DNA from: Cyanobacteria bacterium RYN_339
Lineage (GTDB): Bacteria; Cyanobacteriota; Sericytochromatia; S15B-MN24; JAQBPE01
Direction of reading: 5' to 3'
Assembly: GCA_028287685.1 (NCBI GenBank)
Contig: JAQBPE010000239.1
Coordinates: 1-62,617, forward strand
DNA length: 62,617 nt
Shown here piece by piece: positions 756-11,688 of the stretch. The notes below the pieces were generated by a model. It saw only the letters and a list, made by a program, of their open reading frames with translations. It did not search any database and was not told the origin of the DNA. The stretch's first letter is position 1; every line of letters begins with the position of its first letter. Both the position numbers and the translations under genes were made by a program.

Positions 756-1460
756 CTAAACGCGAGGCCGCGCGCCTGCTTGCTCTTCCAGGTAGCGCGG
801 CAGAACATAATCCACAAAAATGCGCGCCAGCTCGGGATCGAAGGCGACGCCGGCCAGCCGGTTGATCTCCGCGATCACCTCGTCGCCGCCGAAGCCCGGG
901 CGGTAAGGCCGCGGCTGCAGCATGGCCTCCGCGGTGTCCGCGAGGCGCAGGATGCGCGCCGGTAGCGGGATTTGGCTGCCGGCCAGGCCGTCGGGGTAGC
1001 CCAGGCCGTCCCAGCGCTCGTGGTGCCAGCGCACCCACTGGCCCACGCCAGGGTCTGCGGCGGCTTCTCCCGCGCGCGCCGCGCCGTCGGCCGGATGGTC
1101 CCATATCTGGAACAGCTCCGCCTGGGTGAGGAAGCCGGGGCGGGCCACCAGGGCCGGCGGCACGTCGACCATGCCGAGATCGTGCAGCAGGCAGGCCTGC
1201 TCCAACCGCGGCCGCAACGCTTCCGGCAGGGCGATCGCCTCCGCCAGGCGCGCCGCCAGGTCCGCCACGCGCCGCGCATGGCCGGGGGGATACAGCTCGG
1301 CGGCGTCGGCCGCCAGCACCCACTGCGCCACGGAGCGGCGCGGCGCCACCACTTGGGGCGCCTGGCGCTTGGGGATCGGGAGGTAGAAGTAGAGCGCCGC
1401 GCCGATCCCCAGGAACAAGAAGGAGAACCCCAGCAAATGCAGCAGGTCGCTTGCGTTCAC
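756..1460 (-). CDS. Membrane-anchored HD-GYP domain protein
   Basis: The 234-aa protein has one N-terminal membrane segment (about residues 8-28) and then an HD-GYP domain. HD-GYP proteins hydrolyse cyclic di-GMP. Visible motifs are the metal-binding HD in LLHDLGMVDVP, the HHERWDGLGYPDGL block containing the GYP signature, and an ARILRLADT segment. The start is GTG, with AGGAG 8 bases upstream; a Lys-Arg stretch follows the anchor, so the catalytic part should face the cytoplasm. No sensory domain is present. It lies downstream of hppA on the same strand, separated by a hairpin, and near a GGDEF protein that could make its substrate. The terminal HD-GYP part is on the short side, so activity is likely but unproven. 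Confidence 0.85.
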   Translation of the reverse strand: MNASDLLHLLGFSFLFLGIGAALYFYLPIPKRQAPQVVAPRRSVAQWVLAADAAELYPPGHARRVADLAARLAEAIALPEALRPRLEQACLLHDLGMVDVPPALVARPGFLTQAELFQIWDHPADGAARAGEAAADPGVGQWVRWHHERWDGLGYPDGLAGSQIPLPARILRLADTAEAMLQPRPYRPGFGGDEVIAEINRLAGVAFDPELARIFVDYVLPRYLEEQAGARPRV

Positions 1461-1482
1461 TGGGGTTCTCCTATGAGAGTTA

Positions 1483-1502
1483 CCGGGGGCTTGCGCCCCC
1501 GG
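1483..1502 (-). terminator. Hairpin downstream of hppA
   Basis: A perfect 8-bp G/C stem (1483-1490 with 1495-1502) with loop TTGC follows the hppA stop by 6 bases and precedes the HD-GYP start. There is no T-run on the minus strand, so it may attenuate rather than fully terminate. Confidence 0.45.
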
Positions 1503-1508
1503 TGGGCG

Positions 1509-3905
1509 CTACGGGGTGGCGCTCGCCTTGGGGGCGGCCGAAGCCGCCGCCGACGAAGCCGCCGCCGAAGGAGCCGACGAGGGAGCAGCCGACGCAGGCG
1601 CGGTGGAGGCGCCGGGCATCGGGATGCCCACCGGCTTGTTGCCCGCGGGGGTCGCGGACGTCGCCGAGGTAGGCATCGCGCTCGCCGCCATGCCGGCCGC
1701 CTGGCTCGGCGTGACGCTGGGCGCGTTGCCGCCCGGGTTGCCCGTGGAATCCGGCGTCGGGATGGTGGAGGCCATCACGTTGGGGGCCGCACCGTGCGAG
1801 CTCGCCGGGGTGGTCGCCCGCACGTCCGGGTGCAAGGCCATCATGCTGGGAACCAGCAGCAGCGCCACGATGTTCAAGATCTTGATCATCGGGTTCAGCG
1901 CCGGGCCGGCGGTGTCCTTGAACGGGTCACCAACGGTGTCGCCGACGACGGCGGCCGCGTGGGTGGGGGTGCCCTTCTGGCCGGAGATCTCGATCAGCTT
2001 CTTGGCGTTGTCCCACGCCGCGCCGCCAACCGTCATCATCAGCGCGAGGCACAGACCGGTGACGATGACGCCCACCAGCATGCCGCCCAGGACCAGGGGC
2101 CCGAGGATCAAGCCGACGGCGACCGGGATCACGACGGCGAGCACGCCGGGCAGGATCATCTCCTTGAGCGCGGCCTGGGTCACGATCGCGACGCAGGTGC
2201 CGTACTCCGGCTTGTTCCGGCCTTCGAGGATGCCCAGGTCGCGGAACTGGCGACGGACTTCCGTGATGACCGACTGAGCCGCCTTGGACACGGCGGTCAT
2301 GAAGATGGCGGAGAAGTAGAACGGCAGCACGCCGCCGAGCAGCAGGCCGGCCAGGACCGACGGGTCGCTCAGGTCGAACTGCATGAACTCCGGGGGAACG
2401 GCCGACGCGGCGATCTTGCCGGCGTGCTGCGCGGCAAGGAAGGCCTCGACCTGCACCTTGTGCACGTCCTGGGTGTAGGAAGCGAACAGGGCCAGGGCGG
2501 CCAGACCGGCCGAGCCGATGGCGTAGCCCTTGGTGACGGCCTTGGTGGTGTTGCCGACCGCGTCCAACGCGTCGGTGATGGTGCGGATCTCGTGGGGCAG
2601 GTTGCTCATCTCGGCGATGCCGCCCGCGTTATCCGTGATGGGGCCGAAGGAGTCGATGGCAACGACCATGCCGGCCGTGGAGAGCATCGAGACGGCCGCG
2701 ATGGCGACCGCGTACAGGCCTTCGTTGTAGTGGCCGCTGAAGCCGCCCGCCATGGCGAACGACAGGATGATCGCGCCCACGATCACGATGACCGGGGCCA
2801 GGGTGGACTCCATGCCCACCGCCAGGCCGGCGATGATGTTGGTGGCGGCGCCCGTCTCGGAAGCCTTGGCGACTTCCTGGACCGGCTTGAACTCGGTGGC
2901 GGTGTAGTACTCCGTGATCCAGGTGATCAGGCCCATGACGGCCAGGCCGATGACGGCGGCGGAGCCGTACTGCCACGGGTTGGCCGGGAACAGCACGTAG
3001 GTCAGCCACACGAAGAAGACGAAGGCGACCACGGCGGTCACGATCGTGCCCCTGTAGAGCGCGGCCATGATCTTGCCGTCGGCGCCCAGCTTGACGCTCA
3101 GCGTGCCGATGATCGAGGCGATCAGGGCGATGCCGCCCAGACCGATCGGGTAGATCACGTAGGTGGGCTGGCCCGCGAAGAACAGGTGGCCCAGCAGCAT
3201 GGCCGCGATCAGGGTTACGACGTAGGTCTCGAACAGGTCGGCACCCATGCCGGCGCAGTCGCCGACGTTGTCGCCGACGTTGTCCGCGATGACGGCAGGG
3301 TTGCGCGGGTCATCCTCGGGGATGCCGGCTTCGACCTTACCCACCAAGTCGGCGCCGACGTCGGCGGCCTTGGTGAAGATGCCGCCGCCCACGCGGGCGA
3401 ACAGCGAGATCAAGGAGGCGCCGAAGCCCATGCCGACAATCGCGTTGACGTCGCGGGTGGCAGCGTAGAAGGCGGAAACGCCCAACAGGCCCAAGCCGGC
3501 CACGGCCAGGCCGGTGACCGCGCCGCCCTTGAAGGCAACGTCCAGCGCGGCGGACAGGCCCTTCTCGGCGGCGGCGGCGGTACGGACGTTGGCACGAACG
3601 GAGATGTTCATGCCGACGTAACCGGCGGCGGCGGAGAAGAACGCGCCGATGGCGAAGCCAATGGCGGACATCATGCCCAGGCCGAACACCAGGACGATGA
3701 AGACGATGACGCCGACAATGGCGACGTACGTGTACTGCTTGTTCAGGTAGGCGCTGGCGCCTTCCTGGATGGCGGCGGCGATCTCGCGCATCGAGTCGTT
3801 GCCGTCCGGCAGCTTCAAGATGCCGAGCGCCAGCGTTCCGGCGAAGATCAGTGTGATGATAGCCGCCACCGGGCTAAGCATCACGATCAAGTCAATGATG
3901 GGCAT
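1509..3905 (-). CDS. hppA: Membrane-bound proton-translocating pyrophosphatase with a long C-terminal tail
   Basis: This pump hydrolyses pyrophosphate and translocates H+ across the cytoplasmic membrane. The protein has the many hydrophobic helices of the family and its signatures: the [23 protein letters not shown] substrate loop, [19 protein letters not shown], and the C-terminal [19 protein letters not shown] block. Lys455 and Thr458 ([10 protein letters not shown]) are the residues known in K+-independent H+-PPases; K+-dependent enzymes have Ala at the Lys position. Unusually, about 101 residues (698-798) follow the last helix, made almost only of Ala, Ser, Pro, Thr and Gly. Family topology places the C terminus on the outer face. 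The start has an AAGGAGTAGGA ribosome site. It is monocistronic or weakly linked to the HD-GYP gene. Confidence 0.96.
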
Positions 3906-4008
3906 GGGTTTGTGGTCCTACTCCTTGCGACTGCGAAAACGTAAGATGCGACATGTAGTGCGTCGATTAAACGCCTACTTTACCCTAATTTAATAAACCT
4001 GGCAAACA

Positions 4009-4168
4009 GACCCAGGCTGGGGCGGTCCGGCCGCGCGTCACTTGTCCAGTGGCCCGGCTGCGGCGTCACTCATCACTCACATACCTTCCAGGTATGCTCG
4101 CTCTTCGTTCCTTGCATCCGGGCCCCTGGCCTGCGCGACGCACTGGCCAGCCCACCCCAGCCCGGGTC
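4009..4168. repeat. Long imperfect inverted repeat with apical mini-hairpin
   Basis: The arms (about 4009-4060 and 4112-4168) can pair over roughly 55 positions, with about three quarters Watson-Crick by hand alignment. The best blocks are GACCC, GGCTGGGG, GGCC, GCGTC, CCAG and GGCCCGG. The apex holds a second perfect 6-bp hairpin (4081-4086 with 4090-4095). The 3' arm reaches the stop codon of the GGDEF gene. It lies between that gene and hppA, both leftward, so in RNA it would be a 3' end structure of the operon or an hppA leader. No T-run is evident. It could be an elaborate terminator, a repeat element or a structured RNA. Confidence 0.6.
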
Positions 4169-5717
4169 ACGCGACGGGGCTGTCTTCCCACATGGTTGAT
4201 CGGTTACGACCCGCTTGTTTAGACCGGTAAAGCGCCTTGTCAGCGGCTTCCAGCAGGCTGTCTTCGTCGCCGGCGTGCACTGGCCAAGTGGCGACGCCGA
4301 CGCTCACGGTGACGTGCAAGATCTCGCCATGTGGACCGGCCAGGACGGCGCCCTCGATCGCCTCGCGCACGCGCTCCGCCATGATCCAGGCGCCGTCGGC
4401 GTCGGTTTCCGGCATCAAGACCAGCAATTCCTCGCCGCCGAAGCGGGCGGGGATGTCCAGGTCCTCGCGGATGCTGGCCTTGATCGTGCGGGCCACCAGC
4501 TTGAGCACCTCGTCGCCGGTGGCGTGGCCGAAGCTGTCGTTGAACTTCTTGAAGTGATCGATGTCCATCAGCATCAGCGACACCTTGGTGTCGTAGCGCG
4601 CCGCGCGGCGCAGCTCCTCCGTCAGGCGCTGCTCGAAGTGCCGGCGGATGAACAGCTTCGTGAGCCCGTCGACCGTGGCGAGCTCGTAGAGCCGCGCGTT
4701 CTCGATCGCGGTTGCGGCCTGGCTGGCCAAGTTCACCAGCAGCGGCACGTCTTCCTGGGCGAAGGCCGCCACGCCGGCCCGATCTTCCTTATCGAACACG
4801 GCCAGCACGCCGAAGACGCGGTCCTGGTAGGCCACGGGCACGGCGATGCAGCTGCTCGCGTCCAGGTCGGTCGGGATCCCGCCTTCCACCAGCAGCGGCG
4901 TCCCCTCCGTCAGGACGCTGCCCAGCCAGCCCTCGCGGGCGCCCCACATGGGCGCGCTCGGGGACTCGGCGAAGCCGAAGGACGCCGCGGGGTCCAGGCG
5001 GTTGCCGCCCTCGCTCAGCGTCAACAACATGCCCTTGCGCGCATCCAGCAGCTCGATCGCCCGGACGATCACCTCGCGCGTGATCTTGGTGCGATCCAGC
5101 GTGGAGCTGATGTCCCGGCTGATGTCGTAAAGCTGCTCGAGCTGCCTGACCTTCAGGCCCAGCTGCATGTTGGCGGTCTTGAGGTCCACGTTGAGGCTGA
5201 AGTTGTGCAACGCGACGGCGAACTGGCGCCCGATCAGGATCAGGATGTCGAGCTCCGTCTGGGTCAGCGGCTCCTTCGAGAGCTTCTCGCCCAGCATCAA
5301 CAGCCCCAGGAAGTGCCGGTTCACGGCCAGCGGCAGCCAGATCGCATGCGGCAGGCCCGTCAGGGCCTCGGCGTTGGCCGTGAGGAACTCCTGCAAGGCG
5401 GCGTGGGGCTCGTCCCACTCCGCGATCGGGAAGCCGCCCTCCGCCAGGAAGTAACGCCGTGCCTCCGTGGGCACGGCCAATGGCCCGGGCTGGCGCTCCT
5501 CCACCGTGCCTTCCGCCACCAGCTCGAGCACCTGGTCCTCCGGCCGGTAGAGGAAGAGCGCGCCCTTGCCGATGCCGAACGCGCCCTTGGCCATGCGCAT
5601 GATCGCGCGGATGCTGGAGGTGGGGTTGGGGTTGGTGGTCATCTGCTCGGCCATCTCGCCGAGGGCGGAGAGGATGTAGAGCAGGCGCTCGAGGGTCTGG
5701 TCCGGTCCGGGTTCCAT
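4167..5717 (-). CDS. GAF-GAF-GGDEF protein, putative diguanylate cyclase
   Basis: The 516-aa cytosolic protein has two N-terminal GAF-like domains (about 20-185 and 195-340), a helical connector (SQAATAIENARLYELATVDG) and a C-terminal GGDEF domain. The active site reads GGEEL, which is an acceptable GG(D/E)E(F/L) site, so synthesis of cyclic di-GMP from two GTP is likely. The inhibitory RxxD site is degenerate: the position expected to be Arg is Glu (EDLD before IPARFGGEE). The ATG chosen lies 4 bases after the STAS stop; an in-frame TTG at 5729 overlapping that stop is an alternative. It is the last gene of a leftward set with STAS and anti-sigma kinase genes, suggesting output of a partner switch into cyclic di-GMP. 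Confidence 0.88.
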   Translation of the reverse strand: MEPGPDQTLERLLYILSALGEMAEQMTTNPNPTSSIRAIMRMAKGAFGIGKGALFLYRPEDQVLELVAEGTVEERQPGPLAVPTEARRYFLAEGGFPIAEWDEPHAALQEFLTANAEALTGLPHAIWLPLAVNRHFLGLLMLGEKLSKEPLTQTELDILILIGRQFAVALHNFSLNVDLKTANMQLGLKVRQLEQLYDISRDISSTLDRTKITREVIVRAIELLDARKGMLLTLSEGGNRLDPAASFGFAESPSAPMWGAREGWLGSVLTEGTPLLVEGGIPTDLDASSCIAVPVAYQDRVFGVLAVFDKEDRAGVAAFAQEDVPLLVNLASQAATAIENARLYELATVDGLTKLFIRRHFEQRLTEELRRAARYDTKVSLMLMDIDHFKKFNDSFGHATGDEVLKLVARTIKASIREDLDIPARFGGEELLVLMPETDADGAWIMAERVREAIEGAVLAGPHGEILHVTVSVGVATWPVHAGDEDSLLEAADKALYRSKQAGRNRSTMWEDSPVA

Positions 5718-5721
5718 CGCG

Positions 5722-6078
5722 CTATTCAAGCACGCCGCGGACGGCCTCTTGTTCGTTGTCGTAGATCAACGCGTACTGCGCCAGGCCCATGATCGTGAAG
5801 GTCTTGGCGATGGTCTTGGTCAGGTTGCAGAAGGCCAGCGTGCCATCGATCTCCTGCATCTTCTCGATCACCTCGATCAGGATCGAGATGCCGATGGAGT
5901 TGATCACCGTGCTCTTCGCCATGTTGATCACGATCCGGCGGAAGCCCTCGGCCAGCAGCGTGTTGGCTTCCTCGCCGATGCGCTCGCCGGCGAGGTTGTT
6001 GATGTAGCCGTCGGTGTGGATGACGGCGAAGCGGCCCTGGGCGTCACGCTGGGTGGTGATCACGAACTGGTTGATCAT
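5722..6078 (-). CDS. STAS-domain anti-sigma factor antagonist
   Basis: The 118-aa protein is a single STAS domain of the SpoIIAA/RsbV type. Strands and helix follow the family order, and the phosphorylation loop reads VINSIGISILIEVIEKM with a serine at the canonical site (Asn replaces the usual preceding Asp). An RsbW-like kinase is encoded immediately upstream (2-base gap), so reversible phosphorylation of this serine by that kinase is the obvious model. GGAG lies 7 bases before the ATG, in the end of the kinase gene. Sigma or other target factors are not in the window. Confidence 0.88.
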   Translation of the reverse strand: MINQFVITTQRDAQGRFAVIHTDGYINNLAGERIGEEANTLLAEGFRRIVINMAKSTVINSIGISILIEVIEKMQEIDGTLAFCNLTKTIAKTFTIMGLAQYALIYDNEQEAVRGVLE

Positions 6079-6080
6079 GG

Positions 6081-6503
6081 CTAGCTCCGCTTCTTCGACA
6101 TGCTGATCTGGGTGCCGGTCGGGCCGGTGGTGATGGTCACGGAGTCCATCAGGCTCTCCATCATCATCAGGCCCCAGCCGCGCTTGTGGTCGCCGCCGAT
6201 CTTGGTCGTAAGCTCCGGCTTGGGGACGTCTTCCGGGGTGAAGCCCACCCCGAAATCCTGGATCACCACCAGCAGCTCTTCCGCGTTCATCACGAAGCGG
6301 ATGTAGACCTTGCCCTCGCCGCTTTTGCTGTGCTCGAAGGCGTTGATGCAGCCCTCCACCAGCGCGTGCTTGACCTCATCGATCTGGTCGTTGTTGAACT
6401 CCATGAAGCGCAGCACGGCCTCCGCGGTCTGGATGGCCGCCACCTCCATGTCGGGGATCATGGGGATCGTGAGGTTCACTTCCCGCGGGAAATCCGTGTG
6501 CAT
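6081..6503 (-). CDS. RsbW/SpoIIAB-type serine kinase anti-sigma factor
   Basis: The 140-aa protein has the HATPase_c fold of anti-sigma kinases: an N-box (HALVEGCINAFEHSKSGEG) and G1 box (IQDFGVGFTPED), then a glycine-rich lid with RGWGLMMMESLMD. Members bind ATP, phosphorylate a STAS antagonist and sequester a partner, usually a sigma factor. The shape and the adjacent STAS gene support this. The start has GGAGTGA 8 bases upstream, inside the end of the preceding secreted-protein gene. The set reads kinase, STAS, GGDEF without promoter-sized gaps, so it is likely one transcript also fed by the GH57 gene. Confidence 0.9.
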   Translation of the reverse strand: MHTDFPREVNLTIPMIPDMEVAAIQTAEAVLRFMEFNNDQIDEVKHALVEGCINAFEHSKSGEGKVYIRFVMNAEELLVVIQDFGVGFTPEDVPKPELTTKIGGDHKRGWGLMMMESLMDSVTITTGPTGTQISMSKKRS

Positions 6504-6509
6504 GCGTCT

Positions 6510-7340
6510 TCACTCCACCCGCATCAGCCGGGTGTAGATCTTTTGCCCCACGATCGACTCGTTGTTGCCGGCCTTCCAGTACTTGTTGATCACCAGCACG
6601 TGGGCGTAGGTGCCCGGCGTGTCCGGCCCGTGGAACTCGGCCTCGACGCCCTCGGTGGGCACGGGCTTGAACTGGAGCTGCTTGAAGACCTCTTCCGCGC
6701 CGGCCTTCTCGATCACGTTCTTGAGCGGCGCGGTGGTGTAGGCATACGCCACACCGAAGCCGGGGCGCTCGTCCTCGCCCACGAACAGGCGGAAGCGGTA
6801 CGGCTGCTTGGTGCCGCCCAGCGTGGGCAAGGTGGAGAAGCCGATCGCGCCGAAGTTCTGGCCGATGTCGATGTAGCTGTCATTCCAGGCCACGTCGAGC
6901 AGGCCGGTGGTCCAGCGTTCGCCCGCCCGCTTGTACAGCGCCGTGACCTGCCCGGTCTCGCGGTAGGTGGCGGCCAGCCCGGAGTTGTCGTAGTTGGTGG
7001 TGCTGCCGGAGAACTCCGTGACGGTGGTGGCCGCCGCCTCGTCCGGGGAGATCGTGTTCACGCGGATGCGCTCGTACTTCATCGAGAGGTTCTTGAACGA
7101 GTCGCGCAGCTCCTTGTTGATGTCCACCAGCCGGGCGCGGTCCACCCTCAGGCCGTTGTAGTCGAGCTGCGGCGCGAAGTCGTGCAGGTAGCCCTCGAAG
7201 TCGCCGGTATTGAAAGCCGCGAGGCTTTGGTCGAGGCTGGCCTTGAGGACCTGCTCGACGGTGGGCGCCTGGGCCCGAGCGGGCGCGGCCAGCAACACGG
7301 CTACCGCCACCAGCGGGACGAAGCGGAAGGGGGACATCAT
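6510..7340 (-). CDS. Secreted protein with NTF2/SnoaL-like N-terminal domain
   Basis: The 276-aa protein starts with a Sec signal peptide (MMSPFRFVPLVAVAVLLAAPARAQ, cleavage after ARA). The following ~130 residues resemble the NTF2/SnoaL cone fold: a long helix VEQVLKASLDQSLAAFNTGD, then strands ending with ALYKRAGERWTTGLLDV. The C-terminal ~120 residues I do not recognise. The ATG overlaps the stop of the GH57 gene (ATGA), implying coupling. No catalytic residues are obvious. It probably acts in the periplasm; why it is linked to a glucan-active family gene and a partner switch is not known. A longer reading into the GH57 gene is a frame artefact. Confidence 0.65.
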   Translation of the reverse strand: MMSPFRFVPLVAVAVLLAAPARAQAPTVEQVLKASLDQSLAAFNTGDFEGYLHDFAPQLDYNGLRVDRARLVDINKELRDSFKNLSMKYERIRVNTISPDEAAATTVTEFSGSTTNYDNSGLAATYRETGQVTALYKRAGERWTTGLLDVAWNDSYIDIGQNFGAIGFSTLPTLGGTKQPYRFRLFVGEDERPGFGVAYAYTTAPLKNVIEKAGAEEVFKQLQFKPVPTEGVEAEFHGPDTPGTYAHVLVINKYWKAGNNESIVGQKIYTRLMRVE

Positions 7341-9463
7341 AGCTCGATCACCTGCTGTTTCATCATGCAACGCCATTGGCCGCCCTGCGCCAGGGCCAAC
7401 CGCCAGTTCGGGACCAGGACGGAGCTCTGGTACACGCGCTCGTACCCGCTCTCCGACCTCGAAACGGTTTCCACCGGGAAGCGCCAGAGGTTGGCCTCCT
7501 CGCTCCAGCTCATGTGGACGGCGAGGCCGAGGGTCTCGTCGCGCACGCCGATCTCGCGGATGCTCTCGTCGTGGGCCATGGCGCCCAGGCCCGACGGCTC
7601 GATCTGGCGGCCGGCGGCGCTGTAGAAGGCGCGCTCCTGGCCGCTGCCCGCGCGCACGTTGACGTTCAGCTCGACGCCGAACCAGGCCTCGAGCGGCCGG
7701 TCCCACAGGTTCGTGACGGTGTAGGTGGCCGTGAAGCCGGCGCCCGTGCGGGGCACCAGGATCTCCTTTGCCACGCGGATGGGCCAGAACTCCGGGCCCA
7801 CCCACACGTGGCCGTCCCGCGTCAGCTGGATTACCACGCCCTCGTCGGTCTCGCGCGTCGAGAGCTCGTAGGGCTGGTTGATGAAGTCGCCCTGCTCGCC
7901 GTAGCTCATGTTGTGGAGCGTTTCCAGGCTGGTGTCCGGGTGGAAGAAGTGATCCAGCAAGGAGAGGCGCCGGTACCAGTCGTAGTGCAACAGCTTGTCG
8001 AGGCCGCGCTCCTTGCTGCCCGTCTTGCGGATGGCGGCGTGGTACGCCTCCGGCCGGCGTGCCAGCGTATCCAAGAGGTTGTAGTGGCGGGCCTTGAAGT
8101 CGTGCTCGAACAGCGCGCCGCCGTAGCCGGGCTGGAAGTACAGGTTCTGGTCTTGGGTGGAGACCAGCGCCTCCACGCTGCCGTCGCGGTCGAAGTCCGT
8201 GATCTCGAGCTCGCAGAACGGCTGTCCGTGGTGCCGCAGCTCATCGCACAGCACCTCGGCCTCGAGCAGCGCGGAGTAGTTGGCGCCGCGCAGGTGGTTG
8301 AGGTAGATGCCGCCGAAGACGCCGTGCCAATACGGATCGTTGCTCTGGCCGCGCCAGAGGGCCTCGCGGGCGCGGCCGATGAGGTCTGCGGGCAAGCTGG
8401 ACGTCTCGCCGACGAGCACCGGCGCCGCCACCGCGGCCGTGGCCTTCACCTGGTCGGAGACACGCAGCATCTTCTTGTGGAGGTTGTTGGCCTCCGGGTA
8501 CTTGATCAGGAAGTGGCGCCAGTAGCCGCCGCGCAGGAAGTCCTGGAAGCGCGGGTCCACGGTCTGGCGGGCCTCCTCGAAGAGGGCGGCCTGGTCGGGC
8601 GGCAGGGCCCATTCCTGCATCTCCGTGTAACTGGCGGTGGGCAGGTAGATGCGGCCCCAGGGCTTCACGGCCTCGCGGTACTCGTTGATGGTAGAGCACA
8701 GGATCCAGTCCCGGTTCTCCTCCAGCAACACGAAGAAGCGCTCCAGCCAGCCGTCCAGGTAGACGGACTGGTAGGTGTCCGGCCAACCGCCGAACTTCTC
8801 GCCGTCGTCGAAGTAGAGCATGAGGCGCTGGCCGTCGGAGGTGGCGTGCTGACGCAGCAGCTCGATCACGCGCTCGGGCGGCTGGAAGGGGATCATCGCG
8901 CGCAACTGGCGGTTGATCGGGAACATCGAGACCACGTGGCCCTGTTCCTCCGTCTGGTAGTAGCCCAGCAGCTCCGCGCCACGGAGGCCCGCCGCCTTGA
9001 AATGGGTGTCATCCACCACGGCGTACTTCACGCCCGCCTCCGCGATCGGCTTGGCCAGGTGAGGCTCCCAGACCCGGCCGGAGAGCCACATGCCCACGGG
9101 CTCGTAGCCCGTCGCGTTGCGCACGGTTTCCGACAGGTAGCGGATTTGGCCGACCTTGTCGTCGTCCGGGATGGTGGCGAGGATGGGCTCGAAGTAGCCG
9201 CCCGTGATCAGCTCCAGCTGCCCGCGGGCCACCAGGGCTTGCAGACGTTTCAGGAACTCCGGGTGGTGCTGCGCCAGCCAGGCCAGCAGGTGGCCCGCGT
9301 AATGGATCGACAGGTGGATGGCCGGGTGGCGCTCCAGCACATCGATGAACGGCATGTACGAGTGCTGGTAGCTGTCTTCGATGACGCGATCCCAGTTGCC
9401 GACGGGCTGGTGGTTGTGCAGCCCAAGGGCAAGATGGATCTTGTCTTGGTCGGCAAGCAGCAT
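7337..9463 (-). CDS. GH57 4-alpha-glucanotransferase-like protein lacking the catalytic nucleophile
   Basis: The 708-aa protein matches GH57 4-alpha-glucanotransferases over its whole length: N-terminal catalytic barrel, then the DUF1925 and DUF1926 type C-terminal regions. Conserved regions visible are HNHQP (15-19), GQLELITGG, DDGEKFGGW with the acid/base Asp, and SNDPYWHG. However, the third region, WLTER in Thermococcus litoralis enzyme with nucleophile Glu123, reads WLSGR here: Gly129 (codon GGC at 9077-9079) replaces Glu. Two base changes separate GGC from a Glu codon, so a single sequencing error is unlikely. Catalysis by the retaining mechanism should be lost; the protein may bind glucans or regulate. 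GAGG precedes the ATG. Confidence 0.9.
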   Translation of the reverse strand: MLLADQDKIHLALGLHNHQPVGNWDRVIEDSYQHSYMPFIDVLERHPAIHLSIHYAGHLLAWLAQHHPEFLKRLQALVARGQLELITGGYFEPILATIPDDDKVGQIRYLSETVRNATGYEPVGMWLSGRVWEPHLAKPIAEAGVKYAVVDDTHFKAAGLRGAELLGYYQTEEQGHVVSMFPINRQLRAMIPFQPPERVIELLRQHATSDGQRLMLYFDDGEKFGGWPDTYQSVYLDGWLERFFVLLEENRDWILCSTINEYREAVKPWGRIYLPTASYTEMQEWALPPDQAALFEEARQTVDPRFQDFLRGGYWRHFLIKYPEANNLHKKMLRVSDQVKATAAVAAPVLVGETSSLPADLIGRAREALWRGQSNDPYWHGVFGGIYLNHLRGANYSALLEAEVLCDELRHHGQPFCELEITDFDRDGSVEALVSTQDQNLYFQPGYGGALFEHDFKARHYNLLDTLARRPEAYHAAIRKTGSKERGLDKLLHYDWYRRLSLLDHFFHPDTSLETLHNMSYGEQGDFINQPYELSTRETDEGVVIQLTRDGHVWVGPEFWPIRVAKEILVPRTGAGFTATYTVTNLWDRPLEAWFGVELNVNVRAGSGQERAFYSAAGRQIEPSGLGAMAHDESIREIGVRDETLGLAVHMSWSEEANLWRFPVETVSRSESGYERVYQSSVLVPNWRLALAQGGQWRCMMKQQVIEL

Positions 9464-9511: not shown

Positions 9512-11581
9512 TCACTTCGTGACGCTAGCGCGCTCTTGCCGGTCCTTGAAGTCGTGGTAGTCGATCCAGGCGAAGGCGTTGTCGATGGCCTCGATCGCGG
9601 CCACCTTGGCCTCCGTCAGCGCGCCGCCCAGCACGCCGTCGGCCAGCGTGTCGAAGCGCTCGACGTGCTCGTTGAAGCGGTCGATGGCGTAGGTCTTGGC
9701 CTGGCCGGTGGTCACGAGGAAGGGCCAATCGCTGCCTTGCAGCAGCAGCAGCTCGCGGGCGGCCTGGGCCAGGGCGCGGCCCTCCAGCTCGTTGCGCGGG
9801 GTGGGCACGAAGCGCACCAGCTCCTCCATGCGCTGCTCGCAGCGGTGGACGATGGGCCACATGAACTCGACTTGCGGGTTCATCCAGACGTGGAAGTGGC
9901 CGCCGGCGCCCCAGGAGCTTTCCGGGAGCTGGTAGGCCAGCTCCGGCGGGTCTTCCGCCATGATCTCGCCGATCGTCACGCGCTTGATGCCGCTGCCCTG
10001 GGACATGGTGCGGATCATCTGCTTGATCCACTCCACGCCCTCGAACCACCAGTGGCCGAACAGCTCCGTGTCGAAGGTGACGACGACGTGGCCGGGCTTG
10101 TCGTTGGCGTCCTGGTAGGCCTTGAGTTGGTCGAAAACCAGGCCGACGTAATGCTCGCTGTTCTCGTGGACGCGCTGCAGCGCCATCTGGGGGTTGTAGA
10201 AATCCTTGTCGGCCAGGTCCCAGTTCTTGCCCGTCACGCGCCAGTACTGCATGCCGCTGTTGCTGTCGCGCTTGTGGAACTCGCGGTACCAGCCGTCGCC
10301 AGGGTAGCCGTCCACGGCCCACACCTGCATGCCGGCGGCCTCGTTGCGCGCGAACACGGCGACGGGGTTCTCCGGCAGCCAGTAGCCCTGGAAGGTGGAG
10401 AGGCCCGTCTGCGGGCGCTCGGGCATGGGGATGTACTCGATCGTGCCGTAGGGGCCGATCATGCGGCGGTAACCGGCGGTCTTGCCGCCCTGCACGGCGT
10501 GGCTCTCCGTGAAGAAGTACTCCAGGCCGTTCTCCTTGAGGAACTGGTCGATGGGCGGCCGGTACTCGTTCTCGCCTTCGATGGCGGGCCGGTAGGCGCA
10601 CTCCGGCAGCCACACGCCCTTGGGCTGGCGGCCGAAATGCTTCTTGTAGGTCTCGACGCCCACCTTGTACTGGCCGCTCAGGCTGGAATCGCGGCTCAGC
10701 AACGGGCTGAAGCCGTGGGTGGCGGCGCTGGTGATGATTTCGATGCAGCCGTCATCCTGCAAGGCCTTCAAGGCGCCCAGCAAATCGCGGCGGTAGCGGT
10801 CCCGGAAGTCCGCCAGGCGGCCGGTGTACCACGCGTAGTAGTACTCCGCGAGCTCGCGGCGGGCGTCGACCGGCCGGGGCTTGGAGAACTCCTCCTCGAT
10901 CGCGGCGAGCTCCGTCAGCAGCTGCTCGTCGCCTTCAGCCTCGGGTTCCGGTGCGGCCACGGTCTCGACGGGCTCGTCGGCGGGCAGCGATACGGCAGGG
11001 GCGACGGCCACGGCCTGGGCGGCGGGGGACGGCTTGGTCGAAGCGGGCTTCTCGGCGACGGCCACTTCTTCGTCGTCGACCGCCTTGGGCTTGGAGGCCA
11101 TCAGCTCGCTCTGGACCTCGTCGGGCTCGGGCTTGCGGGCCCAGGCCGGGCGGGCGGGCGGCGCGGTCTTGGCGTCTTCCACGGCCTGGGCGGCGGCCAC
11201 GCGCTCGGCGTAGGCGGCCTTGGCCGTGGCGATGCGCTCGCCCTTGTCCCAGGCGGTGCTTTCCAGCATGCCCGCGTCGCTGTAGCGGAAGCGGTCCAGC
11301 TCGATGCGCGCGATGAAGGCCGCCATGTACTCCTCGAAGCCCTGCTTGAGGTGATCATCGGCCAGCTGCTCTGCCAACACGGGCGTGACGCCGATCGTGA
11401 CCTTGGCCGCGATGCCCTCCTCGCGCAGGTCTTCGAAGGCGTTCAACAGCGGGATGTAGGTCTCCGCCATCGCCTCGTACAGGTTCTCCTCGCCGAAGGG
11501 CCACATGCCGGCCTTGCGGTAATACGGCAAGTGGCTGTGCAGGACCAGGGAGAACGTCCCGATGGGCGTGGGGGTGGACAT
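9512..11581 (-). CDS. GH57 1,4-alpha-glucan branching enzyme with a low-complexity insertion
   Basis: The protein (689 aa) begins with the GH57 branching-enzyme signature FSLVLHSHLPYY. The nucleophile Glu327 sits in WLPECAY and the acid/base Asp in VTFDTELFGHWWFEG, both as in the Thermococcus kodakarensis branching enzyme. It should introduce alpha-1,6 branches into glycogen in the cytoplasm. Residues about 139-225 form an Ala/Pro/Glu-rich, probably disordered insertion not typical of the family. Of several in-frame starts, the ATG at 11581 is preferred because GAGG lies 6 bases upstream. It is 48 bases upstream of the second GH57 gene and probably in the same transcript. Confidence 0.9.
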   Translation of the reverse strand: MSTPTPIGTFSLVLHSHLPYYRKAGMWPFGEENLYEAMAETYIPLLNAFEDLREEGIAAKVTIGVTPVLAEQLADDHLKQGFEEYMAAFIARIELDRFRYSDAGMLESTAWDKGERIATAKAAYAERVAAAQAVEDAKTAPPARPAWARKPEPDEVQSELMASKPKAVDDEEVAVAEKPASTKPSPAAQAVAVAPAVSLPADEPVETVAAPEPEAEGDEQLLTELAAIEEEFSKPRPVDARRELAEYYYAWYTGRLADFRDRYRRDLLGALKALQDDGCIEIITSAATHGFSPLLSRDSSLSGQYKVGVETYKKHFGRQPKGVWLPECAYRPAIEGENEYRPPIDQFLKENGLEYFFTESHAVQGGKTAGYRRMIGPYGTIEYIPMPERPQTGLSTFQGYWLPENPVAVFARNEAAGMQVWAVDGYPGDGWYREFHKRDSNSGMQYWRVTGKNWDLADKDFYNPQMALQRVHENSEHYVGLVFDQLKAYQDANDKPGHVVVTFDTELFGHWWFEGVEWIKQMIRTMSQGSGIKRVTIGEIMAEDPPELAYQLPESSWGAGGHFHVWMNPQVEFMWPIVHRCEQRMEELVRFVPTPRNELEGRALAQAARELLLLQGSDWPFLVTTGQAKTYAIDRFNEHVERFDTLADGVLGGALTEAKVAAIEAIDNAFAWIDYHDFKDRQERASVTK

Positions 11582-11688
11582 GGGCATCCTCGACGGGCGT
11601 GGCGGGCAGCTTGCGTACCTTACCACGCGCTGCCAACGGCCCGCCAGGCTCCTATGCTGTTAAGGGACTACATGCGGACGCACGGGCG

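Follow-up and report, generated by a model that had tools for sequence, protein, structure and literature searches.

A GH57 4-alpha-glucanotransferase-like protein with glycine at the nucleophile position, encoded next to a branching-enzyme gene

The retaining mechanism of GH57 enzymes is a double displacement with a covalent step on a nucleophile Glu. In the 4-alpha-glucanotransferase (4AGT) of Thermococcus litoralis (TLGT), Glu123 has been named as this nucleophile (PMC5347038). The family also includes members that have parted with such residues: GH57 "like" groups that lack one catalytic residue or both have been known since 2018, among them 63 bacterial 4AGT-like proteins that probably do not function in the manner of typical GH57 enzymes, with a detailed analysis announced for elsewhere (PMC6037648). 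We found no function assigned to GH57 pseudoenzymes in the literature, though such proteins have been catalogued. In other families, three cases are of relevance: in plants, a noncatalytic paralogue of alpha-glucan metabolism, ISA2, has been conserved alongside ISA1 (PMC12510319); inverting members of GH97 have Gly where the retaining members have their Asp nucleophile (PMC2670981); and activity is documented for a GH13 amylase whose triad is aberrant (PMC5347038).

Nucleophile site and its distribution among relatives

Here we describe P0001, a GH57 4AGT-like protein encoded in the window (the whole 62,617-nucleotide stretch of DNA that was analysed; its genome is G000 in what follows). The gene and its catalytic regions are located as follows:

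7337..9463, minus strand: P0001, GH57 4-alpha-glucanotransferase-like, 708 aa (ORF, Pfam, phmmer, AF2/Foldseek)
9404..9418, minus strand: CSR1, HNHQP, residues 16-20, intact (alignment)
9212..9220, minus strand: CSR2, QLE (GQLE), residues 82-84, intact (alignment)
9074-9088, minus strand: motif WLSGR around Gly129, WLTER in TLGT (phmmer alignment to 1K1W)
9077..9079, minus strand: codon of Gly129, GGC (GCC on the plus strand), Glu123 in TLGT numbering (alignment)
8789..8809, minus strand: CSR4, DDGEKFG, residues 219-225, intact; Asp220 is the acid/base Asp214 of TLGT
8321..8341, minus strand: CSR5, NDPYWHG, residues 375-381, intact (alignment)

Structurally, P0001 has the architecture expected of an active GH57 4AGT, both in its domains, which make up the full 4AGT set (barrel PF03065, middle PF09094 and C-terminal PF09095), and in its fold, with the AlphaFold (AF2) model (pLDDT 91.9, pTM 0.91) matching 1K1X at TM-scores of 0.86/0.95 (Foldseek). 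Its sole PDB match by phmmer was TLGT (1K1W, E = 1e-135), and there was no gap near Gly129 in that alignment. The nucleophile Glu expected in CSR3 of an active enzyme is absent, and Gly129 is found instead. Acid/base Asp220 in CSR4 and Lys223 (logo position 23) are both kept, as are 89 of the 90 columns defined as near-invariant among 36 intact relatives, the sole change being E123G; these retained residues suggest that substrate binding and fold have been kept as well. A shifted nucleophile, Glu133 (WLSGRVWEP), was rejected as a candidate, since most intact relatives have that Glu too. The original prediction, made from the sequence of this locus, had likewise read Gly129 as replacing the catalytic Glu (WLTER to WLSGR) with the other GH57 regions kept, and had stated that GH57 homologues without catalytic residues were known; the alignment with TLGT, in which no other Glu takes the nucleophile position, and the published 4AGT-like proteins (PMC6037648) bear it out on these points.

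The comparison covered an order of non-photosynthetic cyanobacterial relatives, represented by 10 genomes with one GH57 4AGT each, in which G000 and a second genome, G001, make up family f1. The 4AGT of this close relative is 65% identical to P0001 and also has Gly, not Glu, at the nucleophile (ALAGR), encoded by GGT in G001 and by GGC in G000. Outside f1, position 123 is Glu in 40/40 other aligned sequences of the main 4AGT clade; in the highly divergent gut-Vampirovibrionia clade, which stands outside this count, it is mostly, not always, Glu. Evolutionarily, the two f1 proteins form one clade (support 100/100) inside the clade of the order's intact 4AGTs, so that a single loss on the f1 stem explains the Gly. 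A sequencing or assembly error at codon 129 might be suspected in a draft assembly of 506 contigs with 6.7% contamination, but its probability is negligible and it was ruled out: one wrong base would not be enough to produce Gly129, since GGC is two base changes from a Glu codon; G001, an independent genome, encodes Gly at the homologous site by another codon; and the gene order agrees with that of G001.

Gene neighbourhood, constraint and repeated catalytic loss

The genes around P0001 are co-directional, and those from P0001 to the GAF-GGDEF gene either overlap or lie 2 to 6 bp apart:

9512..11626, minus strand: P0002, GH57 alpha-glucan branching enzyme (GBE), just upstream of the 4AGT gene
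6510..7340, minus strand: putatively secreted protein, 276 aa, weak SnoaL/DUF4440 similarity
6081..6503, minus strand: RsbW-like anti-sigma kinase, first gene of a separate module that other genomes of the order also conserve
5722..6078, minus strand: STAS anti-anti-sigma-like protein (Pfam)
4167..5729, minus strand: GAF-GGDEF diguanylate cyclase-like protein (Pfam)
1509-3905, minus strand: H+-pyrophosphatase (H+-PPase)

The whole series CinA-GBE-4AGT-secreted-RsbW-STAS-GAF/GGDEF-H+PPase is found in G001. The secreted protein is f1-specific, its gene being restricted to G000 and G001 within the 10 genomes of the order, and it is the only neighbour tightly coupled to P0001: the 4AGT stop and the secreted-protein start overlap by 4 bp (ATGA, 7337-7340), an arrangement kept in G001 (L052 7253-7256). 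Its AlphaFold model had a pLDDT of only 36. RsbW-STAS-GAF/GGDEF lies away from the 4AGT gene in G002, G003, G005, G006, G007 and G008 (in G008, the trio alone was checked), and H+-PPase adjoins it in G003, G005, G006 and G007; since only f1 joins the 4AGT block to the RsbW block, the junction is a single event. By comparison with the RsbW block, the GBE is the older, ancestral neighbour of the 4AGT gene, and the GBE-4AGT adjacency is also seen in G005-G009 and in Vampirovibrio-type genomes; no GBE lies directly upstream of the 4AGT gene in G002, G003 and G004.

Several features of the neighbouring genes are recorded here in their own right. P0002 has a family-specific Ala/Pro/Glu-rich insert of ~110 residues (about 140-250) inside its GH57 domain; the GBEs of G006 and Vampirovibrio are without it, and the G001 GBE has a different insert in this region. 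The H+-PPase carries a Ser/Ala/Pro-rich C-terminal tail of ~110 residues past its Pfam domain. Together with an HD gene that has a GYP-like motif, it belongs to an RsbW-STAS-GAF/GGDEF-H+PPase-HD cluster (window 756-6503, minus strand) that is conserved in most genomes of the order and may couple c-di-GMP signalling to a proton pyrophosphatase. A promoter/terminator scan yielded two promoter-like matches, both weak and uninformative, of which one lies at the end of P0001.

From a selection perspective, the P0001 gene is under purifying selection. It contains no stop or frameshift, and the 4AGT frames are full-length and open in both f1 genomes; pN/pS between G000 and G001 was 0.39 for the 4AGT and 0.40 for H+-PPase, against 0.49 (GBE) and 0.53 (CinA), values that, with dS near saturation, serve as a relative measure only. 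In the tree of 4AGTs, stem and tip together amount to ~0.49 changes per column, a length over which columns free of constraint would often have changed. With 89/90 near-invariant columns kept and a low pN/pS, P0001 is therefore constrained, and in the lineage of G000, at any rate, it is not a decaying pseudogene. The G001 4AGT keeps 82/90 of these columns, having lost H11, L90, W120, E123, E216, F218, Y272 and N353; the losses affect 6/25 CSR columns (E123 included) versus 2/65 others (Fisher p = 0.005), and this concentration at the active site indicates that the cleft in its old form is not needed in G001. Metabolically, GH57 4AGT chemistry is probably dispensable, because an intact GH77 4-alpha-glucanotransferase (RIDHFRG, AEDLG) is encoded in G000 and GH13 GlgB is above the curated cut-off in G000 and G001; GH77 is present in 10/10 genomes of the order.

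Catalytic residues have also been lost from the same gene pair in a sister family, f4 (G005, G007, G008 and G009). The catalytic residues of P0002 are intact (WLPECAY, FDTELFGHWW). In f4, the GBE-like protein beside the 4AGT has WLPGGA, with the nucleophile Glu changed to Gly (WLPE to WLPG; L056:6174-7979, L058:7126-8802 and L059:2333-4015), and other residues of the catalytic regions are eroded too, the His of ATHGFSP being lost wherever that part was read; in G008, the GBE-like gene and most of the 4AGT gene are on different contigs. These proteins match PF03065 and PF09210 and form one clade (100/100) on a long branch, and synteny suggests that they are orthologues of the adjacent GBE. A second, intact-looking GH57 GBE is located elsewhere in most non-f1 genomes. 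The f4 4AGTs have in turn lost the acid/base in G009 (D214N) and G007 (D214S), which counts as two changes on the tree and may be of single origin. Despite these catalytic losses, the f4 ORFs of the GBE-like protein and the 4AGT are all open. A general rule of one active and one dead partner per pair was rejected, as both partners are dead in G007 and G009.

Two observations on other 4AGT genes may be added. In the f25 homologues (gut Vampirovibrionia-like, small genomes; L101-L108), which are probably further 4AGT-like proteins, LIDSASRHG replaces YFDDGEKFG and the acid/base motif is lost (read from the motif, since MAFFT misaligned CSR4 of f25); the nucleophile position is Gln or Lys in two of them. 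The G002 4AGT gene (L054:7586-9779) consists of two overlapping frames split near residue 63, by assembly error or a real frameshift.

Candidate roles of P0001

We posit, tentatively and with somewhat less than even confidence, that P0001 is a catalytically dead, glucan-binding 4AGT-like pseudoenzyme that serves glycogen metabolism structurally or as a partner. Judging from TLGT chemistry, the covalent step would be lost together with Glu123, and normal glucanotransferase activity would be gone, while the cleft would still hold alpha-glucan chains; P0001 would then be a cytosolic, non-catalytic partner or scaffold, most likely in a putative complex with the GBE P0002, and may influence glycogen in this way, with the intact GH77 carrying out 4-alpha-glucanotransferase chemistry instead. 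E123G as the one change among 90 columns, the low pN/pS, the confident 4AGT fold, the shared GBE-4AGT adjacency, the catalytic losses in f4, GH77 throughout the order and the precedent of ISA2 speak for this reading; the eroded cleft of G001, the absence of a GBE directly upstream in G002, G003 and G004, and the two dead partners of G007 and G009 speak against it. Given the active GH13 amylase with an aberrant triad (PMC5347038), inactivity of P0001 is not to be assumed. A broader form of this proposal, which we consider doubtful, takes the adjacent GH57 GBE and 4AGT pair of the order to be a physical glucan-binding assembly, mainly non-catalytic, and a bacterial counterpart of ISA1/ISA2; if true, such an assembly would explain why the members and residues lost vary between families and the genes are retained.

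It is unlikely that P0001 is instead a redundant enzyme in decay, that is, a GH57 copy without its nucleophile that has been drifting toward loss since GH77 took over. The presence of GH77 throughout the order, the concentration of further G001 losses at the active site, the loss of different catalytic residues in several lineages of the order and the split gene of G002 would all be consistent with decay; however, the near-complete retention of invariant columns in P0001, a 4AGT pN/pS as low as that of its neighbours or lower, and the open full-length frames of both f1 genomes, with the 4-bp overlap with the next gene conserved, argue against it.

Quite improbable, too, is the glucan sensor of the original prediction, in which the dead enzyme would signal through the secreted protein, the RsbW/STAS switch and the diguanylate cyclase of the operon. 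The close spacing of the co-directional genes, their preserved order in G001, and the occurrence of the E-to-G change and the joining of the two blocks on one branch speak for a sensor. Against it, RsbW-STAS-GGDEF stands alone, without a 4AGT, in six other genomes of the order, and only one junction event is seen; the eroded active site of G001 argues against a conserved active-site-based sensor, and the Pfam domain listing of P0001 has no signalling domain. The coupling on which the prediction had built stands for the secreted-protein gene, with its conserved overlap, and for the kinase and GGDEF protein, which belong to a separate module elsewhere, it is not supported as a sign of sensing; with a juxtaposition that is f1-specific and an active site that is eroded in G001, the sensor itself is weakened.

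The least probable of these roles, to be regarded as a slim chance, is a changed chemistry, whereby the Gly pocket would admit water or phosphate and P0001 would be an inverting, phosphorolytic or natural glycosynthase-like catalyst. That only E123 is altered, with acid/base Asp220 kept, would suit this, as would the precedents of GH97 (PMC2670981) and the aberrant-triad amylase (PMC5347038). Unlike in GH97, though, no new Asp/Glu near the active site that is common to P0001 and the G001 protein, and that might serve as base, was found in the alignment, and G001 keeps the Gly yet has lost W120, H11 and E216.

Comparison with known systems

With 1/90 columns lost, constraint on its gene, conservation of the partner gene and a partner that is dead in sister lineages, P0001 is a near-ideal natural test case, through which the function of GH57 "like" proteins becomes directly testable; it also cautions that family membership alone is not enough to annotate glucanotransferase activity. 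P0001 is like TLGT (1K1W) in three-domain architecture, fold, acid/base and CSRs, at 36% identity, and unlike it in having Gly where TLGT has the nucleophile Glu123. The inverting GH97 enzymes (BtGH97a) share with it a Gly at the retaining nucleophile's place, but have a Glu base elsewhere, of which no equivalent was found in P0001. The likeness to plant ISA1/ISA2 is by analogy, in that an enzyme active on alpha-glucan has a retained noncatalytic paralogue, ISA2, which affects polyglucan structure; ISA1/ISA2 are GH13 proteins of plants whose physical complex has been shown, whereas P0001 is a GH57 protein known here from sequence and model. Closest are the 4AGT-like proteins (PMC6037648), which P0001 resembles in being bacterial and 4AGT-related, with five CSRs recognisable and a catalytic residue substituted (E123G). 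In the present tree it lies inside a clade of intact 4AGTs, so that its nucleophile loss looks independent, and it has lost only one residue. P0001 thus fits the definition of the known 4AGT-like kind, to which it adds a single-residue lesion and repeated losses within one gene pair.
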